45,298 bases of DNA from Bacillota bacterium. GTDB lineage: Bacteria; Bacillota; Sulfobacillia; Sulfobacillales; JAIMBI01. The notes under the pieces were generated by a model. The model was not told where the DNA came from, ran no database searches, and worked only from the letters and a program-made list of their open reading frames with translations. The translations under genes were made by a program, and so were the position numbers. The stretch covers positions 1 to 45,298 of the forward strand of contig JAJZWV010000028.1 in assembly GCA_021846505.1 (NCBI GenBank), in the 5' to 3' direction. Shown here in pieces: positions 27,292-33,370 of this stretch (within the stretch, counting starts at the first letter, position 1; each line of letters opens with the position of its first letter).

Positions 27292-27596
27292 GTATGGCAC
27301 CCCTTCTTGGCAGAAACTGCTGGCGCCGTAGCCGCGCGCCCTTTAGCGGGCCCGCGATCCGAAGCCCCGCCGCATTATGAGACCGGGCAGCGGTTCTGCC
27401 CACGCGCCTCCTCAGCCTCCCACATTCGCGGCGTGGGCGCACCTGGTCGGCGGGCCATTCCGCCGATCACCGATGAGCGCTCCGCGCGAATTGGCTGCAC
27501 ACCCCTTGGTTGTCCCGCTCCCGATTAGACACACAGGATAAAAAAAGACAGCAACCAGATGGGTCCCTGGAGCCTGGGACTAGCGGAGGGGCAGGC

Positions 27597-28528
27597 ATGA
27601 TCGGTGGCGGCGCCAGCATCAGCACTAGAGACCGCATCCCCGTGGCCCGTCTGGTGTGGGGCGCAGCCGCCATCGTTATCGCCCTACGCCTCGGTGCCAT
27701 CGGAATCCATGCGCTGTATGGATTTGACTGGCTAACATCTGTCTATGGCGCCCTCGCGCTGGTCACGACGGCGGGCGACACGCGCATGGTGCCGGGTACG
27801 TCGGGCCAAACGATCTTCGCCTTGGGCATGCTCGCCGTCGGCACCGCAGTGTGGATCTACTGGATCTCCGTAGTGGCGGCCGCGCTCGTGGCGGTCGACC
27901 TGTCGCGAAAGGAGCGGCGCATGGAGCAGCGACTGCGACAGCTGGCGGATCACTATGTGGTCGTCGGCGCGGGGCGGGTCGGATCCGCCGTCATGCGACA
28001 GCTGGTGGACGGCGGCGTGCCGGTCGTCGTAGTGGACACCGAGGCCGATCGGGTGGCCTCGCTGGAGGCCAACAGCCCGCACCCCCTGTTCCTCAAGGTG
28101 AGCGCGTACGACGCGGACCTGTTTCGCCGCCTGCGCCTCGACCGTGCCAGGGGTTTGGCCCTGGCCCTTCCGGACGACGCGCAGAATTCTTTCACCAGCT
28201 GGGTGTGGAGGACGTGGTGCGGCCGGACCTGGCTGGCGGCAACCGCCTGGGCCGCATGCTGCTAAAGCCCCGGGCCCACGAACTCATCATGGCCATGTTG
28301 GACGAAGCGGGGATTGTCGTGCACGAGGTGGAGGTGGCTCCCGGCCATGCCATGGAGGGCCAAGAGGTGCGGCGCGTCCGTCAGGCGTTCGGGAGTCGGC
28401 ACACGCTTCTGGGGTACTGGCGCCGTGGGGCCACCTACGTGGCGCCCGCAGCCGGCGACCGGATTCGGGCCGGCGATGTGCTCATCCTCCTGGAACAGCC
28501 CGAGACTTCGAGCGAGGGGCCTCCCTAG
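27597..28528 (+). pseudogene. K+ channel / TrkA-N (RCK) protein with internal deletion and frameshift
   Basis: ATG at 27597 starts a protein with a membrane span (residues about 17-40), a pore loop (YGALALVTTAGDTRMVP) and a second span. It continues with a Rossmann RCK domain: HYVVVGAGRVGSAVM, VVVVDTEADRV, LALPDDAQN. At about 28190 the frame breaks; the continuation in another frame reads FHQLGVEDVVRPDLAGGNRLGRMLLKP and then a complete RCK-C domain ending at 28528. The joint lacks the roughly 30 residues (VTLTAR...ARA) usual after DDAQN, so a deletion of non-triplet length is the likely cause. The pore has TTAGDT where TVGYGD is usual. Probably non-functional. Confidence 0.75.
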
Positions 28529-28967: not shown

Positions 28968-31900
28968 CTACTCGGGAATGGCGGACACGTCGGGCAAATC
29001 GGCTGCGGTGAGCAAGCTATAGGCTTGGGCCGACCGCTCCGCTGCAGAGAGGGCCATGAGCCGCAGTGCCATCTGACCCTGGGCCTTCTCATATACATTG
29101 CGGACAAAGCGGCCGTTCGAAAAGTGATGGGGCCCGGCTGCTAGGCGCAGTCGAAACGCATGGTCAAGCGCATCCACCAGGGCGGGCTCAAGGTCCAGCT
29201 GCGCGCGCGCCGCTAGGTCCCGAAAGATTTGCAGCAACTCGTCGGCGTTGTAGTCCTGGAAGTGCCAGCGGTTCGGGAAGCGGGACGAGAGCCCGGGGTT
29301 CGTGTCCAGAAATGCCTGCATGTCGTCTGGATATCCCGCGCAAATCACCACAAGCGCATCCCGCAAGTCCTCCATCGCTTTCAGCAAAGTTTCGACCGCC
29401 TCCCGGCCAAAGTCATGGCCGCCCTCAACGCTTTTCAGGGCATACGCCTCGTCGATGAACAGCACCCCGCCCACTGCTTCGTCAATCACCCGCTGCGTTT
29501 TCAAGGCAGTTTGGCCAATGTACCCGGCCACAAGCTTTCCTCGATCCACCTCGACCACGTGGCCCCGGTCCAACACGCCCAAACTTTTGAAGATGCGTCC
29601 CATCAAGCGGGCCACGGTTGTCTTCCCAGTGCCGGGGTTGCCCACAAACACCATGTGATAGTTGGTGCGGGACAGCCCCGGCAGTCCCAGGGCCCGGCGC
29701 TGCTGTTGGTACTCAGCCAGTGCCGCTATTTGCCTGACGGCGTCCTTCACCGCCGCCAGACCGATCAGCTGCTCCAACTCCGCCATAATCGCGGTCACCG
29801 GCTCCGCCGCGTGAACGCCGCTGACGTGTCGCACCAGCGGCTTCACATCGTCCAGGGCGACGCGGGTGAGCGCCAGCCGCGTGCGCTCGGCGGTGGGCCA
29901 GCGGGCCAGGCGCCGCGCCTGCTGCACCGCAATCTGCTCTACCCACGTGCGGACCAGGCGTGCATTGGCGAACGTATTGTCTCGGCGCGCGTACAGCGCA
30001 TCGAATTCCTCCGCCACCAGCGCACGGGCGTCGTCATCCACTTCGAGGCCCGCCCGAGCCATGGCTCCGTCAAAAATTTTCATCAACTCGTCCGCGGTAT
30101 AGTCGTCGAAGTGGAATGTGTACCCAAACCGATCCCGCAGTCCGGGGTTGGCGTGCAGGAAGTCCAGCATTTGGTCCGCATATCCCGCCGCAATCACAAC
30201 CAATTCCCTCCGGTGATCCTCCATGGCTTTCAGCAGGGTGTCGATGGCTTCGCGCCCAAAGTCCTGGCCGGCGCTCCCGCTGGGCATCAACGCGTAAGCC
30301 TCGTCCACGAACAGGACCCCTCCCATCGCACGCTGGATGGCGGCTTGCGTCTTCTGAGCGGTTTCTCCGATGTGCGCCCCCACGAGCTGCGACCGATCCA
30401 CTTCCACCACGCGGCCCTCGGGCAAGACCCCCAGGGAGTGGAAGATTCCACCCATGAGCCGGGCGACCGTCGTTTTCCCGGTGCCAGGGCGGCCCAGGAA
30501 CAGCGCGTGCAGGGTCGGGAGCCCCGTCTCCCCCAGATTGAGCTGCTGCCGCTCTGCGCCTACCTTGAGCAAAGCCGCGAGGTCGCGCACCGCCTCCTTC
30601 ACCCTGGCTAGACCGACCAGGTGATCCAGTTCCCCGAGCGCCACGTCGAGCTCGGCGCCGGGCGCCACCGGCCCGCGGGGGGCAGACGGCTGCGCCGTCA
30701 CGATGTTCCCGTCCGCGCGGATAAATGACCCTGCCTGCAGGTTGATCGCCGGCTCCTGGTGAGCGCCGCGGATGATGCAGCGCGAAATCGCACCGACCGA
30801 CTCAGGCTGCGCCAGCACGGCTGAGCCCCTGTTGCCGTCCAGCACACATGCCGTCAGCGTAACCTCGGAGAGGGCTTCGACATAGACCCCGTGGCTCTTC
30901 GAGCCTTGAATCGTCGTTTCGACGGCGGTGGCGAAGGAGCGGCCGGACACCCCTAGGCCCACGTCTCCACTCTGATCAATCATGCACTGCGTCAGCGTGA
31001 CATGGGCGCCGTGATGGGCCGCAACCGCTGGGTGGCCTTCCACGGTGGGGCCCAGCCGGCATCCTTTCAGTGCCGCCGTCCCCCCGTCGGCCAGGACGAT
31101 ATTATGAAATCCGGTGCCTTCCACCCCGCGGGCCGTCACCGTGCCCGATTCGGTGACCGCAATGCCGACGCCATGAGAGCCGGCAATGCGGACGCGGTTC
31201 AAGGCGGCGCTGGCGGTGTCGGTGATGTGGAGGGCGCCTCCCCCGGACGCGAGGGTGAGAGTTCCCCCCTCTATCGTGAGGGCGGCCGCATTCCCTGCGG
31301 TGCAGAAGGACCTGGCCGCCGGGGCCTGCCCGGTGCGTGCCATCCGGCACTCCTCCAGGACGAGGCGGCTGTTGTGGTGCGCGAGAAAGCCCGTGCCTTC
31401 CTCCGCCGTCACGGCAGCCGCCGCTGCGGTCAGGTGAGCGTCCCCAAACACGACGACAAGCGCATCGGGGCCCCCGCGGCCGGACAGGTCTCCGCCAGCC
31501 ACGCGCACAGAAGCCTGGCCGCTAGCCCAGATAGCCGCGCCGCCGGTGGCGGTGATCGTGCTCTCCGCAACCTCGGCCACAGCAGATCCGGCGGCGCTCA
31601 GCACCGGCTGCGCGCGGCTGGCGGACTCGAGCTGGCTCGACCTCACGGTCGCGCGGGCCGCATCAACGAGGGTGAGGACGCTGCCCTCCGGCGAATGGAG
31701 CCGACTATCCGCGATGGTGGCCGCCGTTCCGTCGCGCAGATACAGGGCAGGGAATCCGGCCGACCGCGCTGTGACGGTGCATCCCGTCAGCGTCACCGCC
31801 GTGTTCTGCACGCAGTACAGGGCGTTGGACTGCCCGGAAGTGACCTCACATCCTCTCATCGCGACGGTGGACGACTCGTGCAGCCAAATGGTCGGGGCTT

Positions 31901-32408
31901 GGTCCGCGCTGGTAGCCAGGGTGCAGCTGTCCAGCTCGCAGTGGGACTGCCCGGCTGCTTGGAGGGCATTGCCCGTGGCTCCCTCGATGCGGACGGCGCT
32001 CGCCACGAGGCGCGCACCGTCGGCGACCCACAGCGCGGTCGGCTGCCCCGGGGCTCCTGTCACGGTGCTGTGGTCAATCGTCAGCGCGGCACCGGGCCCG
32101 ATGGCGAGGGCCGCGAAGGCGACTCCCCGAATTGTGCAGCGCTGCACCGTCGCCGCGGTCTGCGGGCTGAGCCTGAGTGTGCCCTGCCACGCCACGTCCA
32201 TGAAGGATGCCGACCCCGACTGCACGTGGAAGTTGGCGGACAGCACCGTGCCCGGCTCGGCCTGAATCACTATCGGGCGGTAAAGGTACAGGTCGCCCTC
32301 GGTGTATGTGCCGGAGGTCAATCGAATGTCGGTCACGTTTGGGCGCAGGAGCGCTTCCTGCAGCGTTTTGACAGGATACCGAATCCCGCGCCCGACTCTG
32401 ATTTGCAC
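28968..32408 (-). CDS. right-handed beta-helix fused to two CbbX/SpoVK-type AAA+ ATPase domains
   Basis: A 1146-residue protein. Residues 1 to about 590 are a parallel beta-helix: after an entry like pectate-lyase proteins ([30 protein letters not shown]) come more than twenty rungs of about 22 residues such as [20 protein letters not shown]. Two AAA+ modules of the CbbX/SpoVK/EccA class follow. The first has Walker [10 protein letters not shown] near residue 639 and Walker [13 protein letters not shown]; the second has GNPGTGKTT near 922 and [12 protein letters not shown]. Each has NPGL..RF with a likely arginine finger, so both look active. There is no signal peptide, so it should be cytosolic. 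GTG at 32408 with AAGGTGG 9 nt upstream was chosen. The client is unknown; CbbX-class proteins remodel enzymes or secretion partners. Confidence 0.9.
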
Positions 32409-32627
32409 GGCGGATTCCCACCTTTCGCCGGCCACTCGGACTGCTGGAGTCTCCGACGTGCCCACCGCCAACCACCGACCCCGTGCGCTCGGCCCCAGCA
32501 CCTCTCATCCCCAGGCCCCCATTCGTCTGCGGCGCGGGATTTTCCTGCCGCCGCCACACATTCGGGGCTCGTGGTTGGCTTCTTTCCCGCCTGCGCACGG
32601 CGCCGGTGCCTTCCAGAGCGACCCCTC

Positions 32628-32660
32628 TTGCACTAATTCGGGACGTATTGGTATAACGTC
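32628..32660 (+). promoter_or_regulatory. promoter for the PH-like gene with an overlapping palindrome
   Basis: TTGCAC (32628-32633) and TATAAC (32652-32657) are spaced by 18 nt. The -10 box is framed by GACGT (32642-32646) and ACGTC (32656-32660), an inverted repeat that could be an operator. It leaves a leader of about 210 nt. It lies in the 467-bp divergent gap, in which no other gene is supported and no clear promoter for the beta-helix/AAA+ gene was found. Confidence 0.55.
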
Positions 32661-32875
32661 ATTGATCCCTGGCGCAGCGAGGAACCTTGCATTTTTGGGG
32701 ATGCCCGGTCTGTCACCCAGGTCCGCTTCGTCCGATCTCTCTTTCTTCGAATCTCCGACGCGTTGCTCGCACTCGAAAGCCCAATCATGAGACCCAGGCG
32801 ACTGTTCCCGGATCCTATCCTGCGGCGCGGCCACACACTCGCAGTGCTTGAATTTACGGAAGGAGAGGACCTGTC

Positions 32876-33280
32876 GTGCCAATGCCTAGCCCGATCACGC
32901 CGGCGGTGATCGGGAACAACGTGGAGATTATGGATGGGCCCAGGTGGTCTCGACAGCGGCTCGGGACGCTCCGGATGACAGAGCGTGGGCTGCACTTTCG
33001 ATCGACCTGGCGAGCCCTGGTGCCCTTTACCTGGTCACTGGCTTGGGAAGACGTGGCTGAGCTTCAGATTGGCGGCGATGTGGCAGAGCGCTGGTCACTC
33101 TGGCTGCCCATGAAAGTGGCTCACCGAGCCACCCACCTTACGATTATGGACCGGCAAGGGCGCTCCCAAGGCTTTGTCGTGCCAAATCGCCCGATCGAGC
33201 GCATCCAAAACCAGCTGCGCCCCACCATGGACCGATGGAATCAGGGGAGGGGAGCCTCTCCCCCAGGTTCAGCTCTGTAG
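32876..33280 (+). CDS. small PH-like-domain protein
   Basis: A 134-residue protein. The pattern LGTLRMTERGLHFRS, then FTWSLAWEDVAELQIGG, THLTIMDRQGRSQGFVVPN and a closing amphipathic helix RPIERIQNQLRPTMDRW fits a bacterial PH/GRAM-like domain (strands with a GL.F turn, an IPW.D-like element, and a C-terminal helix). No membrane span. GTG at 32876 is 7 nt from AAGGAGAGG. It is divergent from the beta-helix/AAA+ gene and has its own promoter and terminator. Such domains often bind membranes or proteins; the role here is unknown. Confidence 0.6.
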   Translation: MPMPSPITPAVIGNNVEIMDGPRWSRQRLGTLRMTERGLHFRSTWRALVPFTWSLAWEDVAELQIGGDVAERWSLWLPMKVAHRATHLTIMDRQGRSQGFVVPNRPIERIQNQLRPTMDRWNQGRGASPPGSAL

Positions 33281-33335
33281 CGAGCACCCCGTGGCCAGTG
33301 GCGGGTGTTGCGAGCGTGAGCCCGGTCACGGCCCG

Positions 33336-33370
33336 ACCGCCGCCGCCAGCACAGTTGGCGGCGGCGGTTT
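33336..33370 (+). terminator. strong stem-loop terminator after the PH-like gene
   Basis: A perfect 13-bp stem (ACCGCCGCCGCCA / TGGCGGCGGCGGT, arms 33336-33348 and 33356-33368) with a 7-nt loop is followed by a short T run. It lies 55 bp past the stop codon of the PH-like gene. Confidence 0.65.

Follow-up and report, generated by a model that had tools for sequence, protein, structure and literature searches.

According to Delerue et al. 2023 (PMC10659427), the AAA+ ATPases of the SpoVK/CbbX/EccA higher clade act as dedicated chaperones, and their N-termini, which vary, may serve to recruit substrates. Their diagnostic features are a GY sensor-1, an Asn upstream of the first Arg finger, a second Arg (sensor-2), and a helical hairpin before Walker A (PMC10659427). 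Each chaperone of the clade serves one client, and it is the variable N-terminus that is thought to choose the client. The N-termini of EccA proteins are either TPR or beta-helix, and a beta-helix fusion within the clade is mentioned in the same study (Delerue et al. 2023, PMC10659427), the only relevant paper found in a literature search for beta-helix EccA proteins or beta-helix AAA fusions. A concrete case is a Streptomyces plasmid beta-helix protein from a type VII secretion system (T7SS) locus (WP_331748049.1, NZ_CP108842.1). Proteins of this kind are ~1060-1120 aa long and consist of a beta-helix followed by two AAA+ modules of the clade; the gene lies among eccB/eccC/eccD/mycosin genes and has no PH-like neighbour.

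The same layout occurs in the DNA analyzed here, a stretch of 45,298 nucleotides from a Bacillota bacterium that is referred to as the window (Table 1). The frame is open throughout 28968-32501 (-), and the placement of the start at 32408 is backed by a conserved start codon and by a conserved N-terminus, (V/L)(Q/E)(I/V)(R/K)VGRG, in four relatives. Pfam recognizes Beta_helix in four stretches of the 1146-aa product, together with AAA and AAA_lid_6 twice each. In an AlphaFold2 (AF2) model of the monomer, for which 11 homologues were used and whose mean pLDDT is 86.9, the arm runs unbroken from residue 1 to about 572-575 with pLDDT mostly >90 and displays repeated short strands all along its length. 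The figure of about 23 rungs is an estimate from arm length at ~24-25 residues per rung and not a count from the model. A poorly ordered linker (residues 568-584) separates the arm from the AAA+ modules. The initial annotation had described a 1146-residue frame with more than twenty beta-helix rungs and had proposed a structure prediction of the full protein; the open frame and Pfam bear this description out, and the prediction gave one continuous beta-helix and then two AAA+ modules. A fold search with the full-length model returned AAA chains for all of its best 50 matches and left the beta-helix unplaced, a result that does not speak against a known relative of the arm. The ATPase is most likely cytosolic because no signal peptide or TM-like segment was detected in a hydropathy scan (maximum 19-residue hydropathy 1.65). 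This location would set it apart from most beta-helix proteins.

Table 1. Features of the ATPase/PH-like locus, in window coordinates.
Feature	Coordinates	Strand	Basis or remark
Beta-helix/tandem AAA+ ATPase gene, 1146 aa	28968..32408	-	GTG start at 32408
Right-handed parallel beta-helix arm, residues 1-575	30684..32408	-	Pfam PF13229 and AF2
AAA+ module 1, residues ~585-857	29838..30656	-	Pfam/NCBIfam and motifs
AAA+ module 2, residues ~870-1138	28995..29801	-	Pfam/NCBIfam and motifs
Divergent intergenic region	32409..32875		Promoter scan
134-aa basic PH/GRAM-like protein gene, divergent	32876..33280	+	Predicted fold (AF2), dN/dS
13-bp perfect inverted repeat, possible hairpin	33336..33368		Downstream of PH-like gene, no T-tract

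Both AAA+ modules are complete. Module 1 carries Walker A at residue 639, a pore-loop-like LVGAHIG at 675, Walker B at 696, and the Arg finger motif NPGLRDRF at 754; the corresponding positions in module 2 are 923, 959 (LVAGYIG), 980, and 1037 (NPGLSSRF). The Walker B DEAY, the GY sensor-1 (as AAGY/CAGY), the NPGLxxRF arginine finger, and the sensor-2 arginine are kept in both modules, and helices 585-596/601-622, which precede Walker A in the model, form the helical hairpin of the clade. In other words, the window modules display every feature listed by Delerue et al. for the clade. The initial annotation had likewise read two complete modules, each with an intact Walker A, a DEAYAL Walker B, and a likely arginine finger, and these motifs were found in both. 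Further evidence comes from NCBIfam, whose SpoVK, CbbX, and EccA models match both modules. The CbbX model (TIGR02880) scores 444 bits, under its cut-off of 459.25, and the EccA model (TIGR03922) scores 427.9 bits, under 466.65. The best solved match of an AAA module (module 1) is CbbX (3syk/3zuh), the red-type Rubisco activase, at ~40% identity. CbbX, however, has one module and no beta-helix and is encoded in a Rubisco operon, whereas no Rubisco gene was seen among the identified neighbours of the ATPase gene. After CbbX, the AAA half of the model aligns to the two-ring type II AAA+ proteins Cdc48/p97, DRG1, and Rix7. These also have two tandem modules and align over ~600 columns, but their N-domains are different and the similarity is only at the fold level (15-20% identity). 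Pfam, NCBIfam, the AF2 model, and the structural matches thus give good support to the initial assignment, in which a beta-helix arm is joined to a tandem AAA+ remodeler of the CbbX/SpoVK/EccA clade.

Could the protein be SpoVK, a chaperone of sporulation, extended by an arm? SpoVK is the closest single-domain NCBIfam model by score (TIGR02881, 513 bits against a cut-off of 422.95), and in three relatives of the same genus (G001-G003) the ATPase gene is found close to spoIIIE/ftsK and PrkA-YhbH-SpoVR. The score, however, adds up two modules against a one-module model, and SpoVK has a short N-terminus and one module where the window ATPase has two. The spoVK gene encodes a single AAA module and is located near the miaA/hfq region. 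Elsewhere in the window genome (G000:C97), a miaA-like gene does have a single-module SpoVK-like gene beside it, and in a tree of 73 AAA modules the product of this SpoVK-like gene falls among other proteins with one module and apart from the window modules. An armed SpoVK is accordingly a very unlikely identity for the window protein.

Where else does the architecture occur? It was found in full in every one of the four genus genomes sampled and in one further genome of the same family (G006). Elsewhere in the class it was found only in G484, which, judged by a 1110-residue open frame, is probably the same MAG as L083. More distantly, it is present in a Hyphomicrobiales MAG (L086; 38% along almost the entire length) and in three Sporosarcina, whose examined flanks showed neither a T7SS nor a PH neighbour. 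In Ligilactobacillus ceti, a protein that has diverged further is of comparable length and has two AAA modules, yet Pfam finds no Beta_helix in it. The architecture is common on Streptomyces plasmids, where it is annotated as 'right-handed parallel beta-helix repeat-containing protein', and the viral contigs that were searched held no relative. Two of the eight Streptomyces plasmid loci examined hold variants. In Streptomyces sp. NBC_00055 (L064), the second AAA module of the beta-helix protein is degenerate, suggesting that some members can make do with ATP hydrolysis in the first ring alone. In Streptomyces scopuliridis (L164), the beta-helix protein is shorter, has one AAA module, and is encoded in a T7SS locus between eccD and WXG100/eccC.

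The Streptomyces proteins raise the question of whether the window ATPase is also an EccA-type T7SS chaperone. They share its architecture and length, and all eight of the plasmid homologues examined adjoin T7SS genes (eccB/eccC/eccD, mycosin, or WXG100). EccA, although a member of the same higher clade, usually has a TPR N-terminus, one AAA module, and a T7SS locus, none of which applies to the window ATPase, and the EccA model misses its cut-off. Moreover, no WXG100 match over the cut-off was found in the genomes of the genus and family, and their matches to EssC are only ordinary FtsK/SpoIIIE. The module tree, whose deep branches are poorly resolved, also separates the two sets of proteins. 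The first and second window modules (D1 and D2) each cluster with the equivalent module of G001, G003, G006, L083, and the Hyphomicrobiales protein, whereas D1 and D2 of the Streptomyces proteins are each other's sisters and form a clade of their own (99/100). Constraining all D1 modules to group together was rejected by the AU test (p = 0.0002), with the group chosen after the tree had been seen. The missing T7SS largely refutes a T7SS chaperone, which is hardly a tenable reading of this locus. Because the AU test rejects a shared D1-D2 origin with the Streptomyces proteins, the tandem beta-helix layout probably arose at least twice.

The initial annotation had not recognized the gene pair as a described system, which is only partly true. 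The beta-helix plus AAA+ architecture is itself already known, both from the fusion mentioned by Delerue et al. 2023 and from its abundance beside Streptomyces T7SS genes. What appears to be new is a T7SS-free orphan branch, its apparent separate origin, and its PH-fold neighbour, no descriptions of which were found in a literature search of incomplete coverage. With the layout apparently built more than once, with and without a T7SS, the role of the arm becomes testable by comparison.

The second gene of the locus encodes a small protein in the divergent orientation. It has a clear Shine-Dalgarno sequence, its start region is conserved in three relatives, and its dN/dS is 0.16-0.49; judged by these sequence signals, the ORF is a real gene under purifying selection. 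The protein is strongly basic (pI 10-11.5, with 11.5 for the copy in the window) and has no Pfam, NCBIfam, or PADLOC match at E<=1. An AF2 model built from 4 sequences (pLDDT 71) shows seven strands and a C-terminal helix (beta7-alpha), an arrangement shared with PH/GRAM domains at Z 10-11: the N-terminal domain of SSRP1 matched with Z 11.1 and the GRAM-PH domains of MTMR6/MTMR2 with about 10.5. Foldseek on its own returned nothing below E 0.001. The predicted PH/GRAM fold is thus good at the level of the fold, with moderate confidence in the model, and the divergent 134-residue PH-like protein of the initial annotation is upheld, although unlike SSRP1 and the MTMR proteins it matches no catalogued sequence family. 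The signals that had been assigned to the gene fared less well. Its supposed own promoter has no counterpart in the scan of the intergenic region, where no sigma-70-like promoter was detected, and the supposed palindrome falls within the coding sequence of the PH-like protein and shows no conservation. As for the 13-bp terminator, the inverted repeat is exact but lacks a T-tract, and terminator-like sites in the scan occur at the level of chance.

Do the two genes function together? The PH-like gene stands divergently beside the ATPase gene in 4/4 genomes of the genus. In G001, G002, and G003, SpoVR lies upstream of the pair, and two ABC genes and PrkA follow it. In the window, the pair is flanked by a dUTPase gene on one side and an M16 peptidase gene on the other, and a broken TrkA-like gene accompanies it. 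Collinearity between the window and G001 otherwise extends over 43 kb, so the pair has two different locations while its divergent order stays the same; the empty site is seen in G001, where about 40 bp separate the M16 gene from the dUTPase gene. Misassembly is an unlikely cause of the two sites, as it would need two breakpoints in one contig. The TrkA-type gene in the insert (27510-28528, +) is seemingly split by a frameshift, with TrkA_N in 27510-28265 and a TrkA_C-like part in ORF 27851-28528.

Outside the genus, the picture is different. An HMM search of six-frame translations at beta-helix-AAA loci recovered only the three genus copies of the PH-like gene and found none at the G006, Hyphomicrobiales, Sporosarcina, Ligilactobacillus, or Streptomyces loci. 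The ATPase therefore does not generally need the PH-like protein. Among 398 sampled genomes of the phylum, no PH-like homologue turned up outside the window's own, and none without the ATPase; weak matches in other genomes have E 0.002-0.008, and plasmids gave no match. The initial proposal of a partner protein thus fails its own co-occurrence test at every non-genus locus examined, but a partnership is supported within the genus. The joint relocation, the 4/4 pairing, and the lack of solitary copies in the sampled phylum genomes support a functional pair at the genus level, with no general requirement.

An alternative explanation is that the two genes are unrelated neighbours, with the PH-like protein having a job of its own and the pairing being inherited by chance. 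The restriction of the pair to one genus and the absence of the PH-like gene from other loci are consistent with this explanation, and divergent genes need not cooperate. The relocation, moreover, happened once, in a single lineage, and adjacent genes could be carried along together even if their products did not bind. Against chance stand the finding of the pair at two chromosomal sites where all other neighbours differ and the lack, in the sampled phylum genomes, of any homologue separated from the ATPase. Chance pairing is unlikely on this evidence, yet it keeps appreciable weight.

The two proteins have not diverged evenly. Between the window and its relatives, identity is 78-79% in the AAA half, 53-55% in the beta-helix, and 41-42% in the PH-like protein, so the latter two outpace the motor by a factor of two to three. 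Such fast divergence fits recognition roles, but weak constraint would fit as well. One could also read a fast-evolving arm, together with the relocation and the patchy spread across phyla, as the mark of a mobile defence or conflict gene whose variable beta-helix senses foreign proteins. PADLOC reports a weak similarity to IetA, but at 63 bits against 500+ for SpoVK it reflects general AAA homology and does not identify a defence protein. No nuclease, protease, or toxin partner is present, and the neighbours are housekeeping genes. A defence function is correspondingly very improbable.

How, then, might the locus work? The reading favoured here, with moderate confidence, is a two-ring remodelling chaperone for a dedicated client, in which the beta-helix recruits the client and the PH-like protein serves as an adaptor or client in the genus. 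The supported core of this reading is that the ATPase is a dedicated remodelling chaperone of the clade, most likely cytosolic; its two active modules would probably assemble as hexamers and stack as two rings in a Cdc48-like manner. The rigid, fast-evolving arm may recruit the dedicated client, and the rings would then pull at a terminus or loop of this client to remodel it. A filament-reading role for the arm and a membrane-anchoring role for the PH-like protein, as raised in the initial annotation, are speculative. In the genus, the divergent PH/GRAM-fold protein could work with the ATPase through direct contact, either as adaptor or as client. This small neighbour, moving with the ATPase gene, is a concrete first candidate for a partner. 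A more specific version is doubtful. It envisages a two-ring remodeler of an origin independent of the T7SS type, operating in bacteria without T7SS, in which a beta-helix arm of ~11 nm (about 23 rungs), together with a PH-fold adaptor specific to the genus, would act on a membrane- or anion-associated client.

Related arms and modules also occur in other settings. Beta-helix-only paralogues of the arm follow an ABC transporter gene pair in three genomes of the genus (L039, L040, and L041, at G002:C42, G003:C92, and G001:C32, respectively), and in the window genome only a short beta-helix remnant follows the same kind of ABC pair (L046, G000:C49). Another beta-helix-only gene (L038, G004:C38) has in its vicinity a conserved ~125-aa protein that starts with VNP(F/L)(G/E); in the window genome, a decayed beta-helix-only fragment (L042, G000:C30) lies near the same protein. 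In Ignavibacteria, two single chains of 1391 aa (L116 and L117) carry five Walker A motifs of the clade after a zinc-ribbon-like N-terminus.
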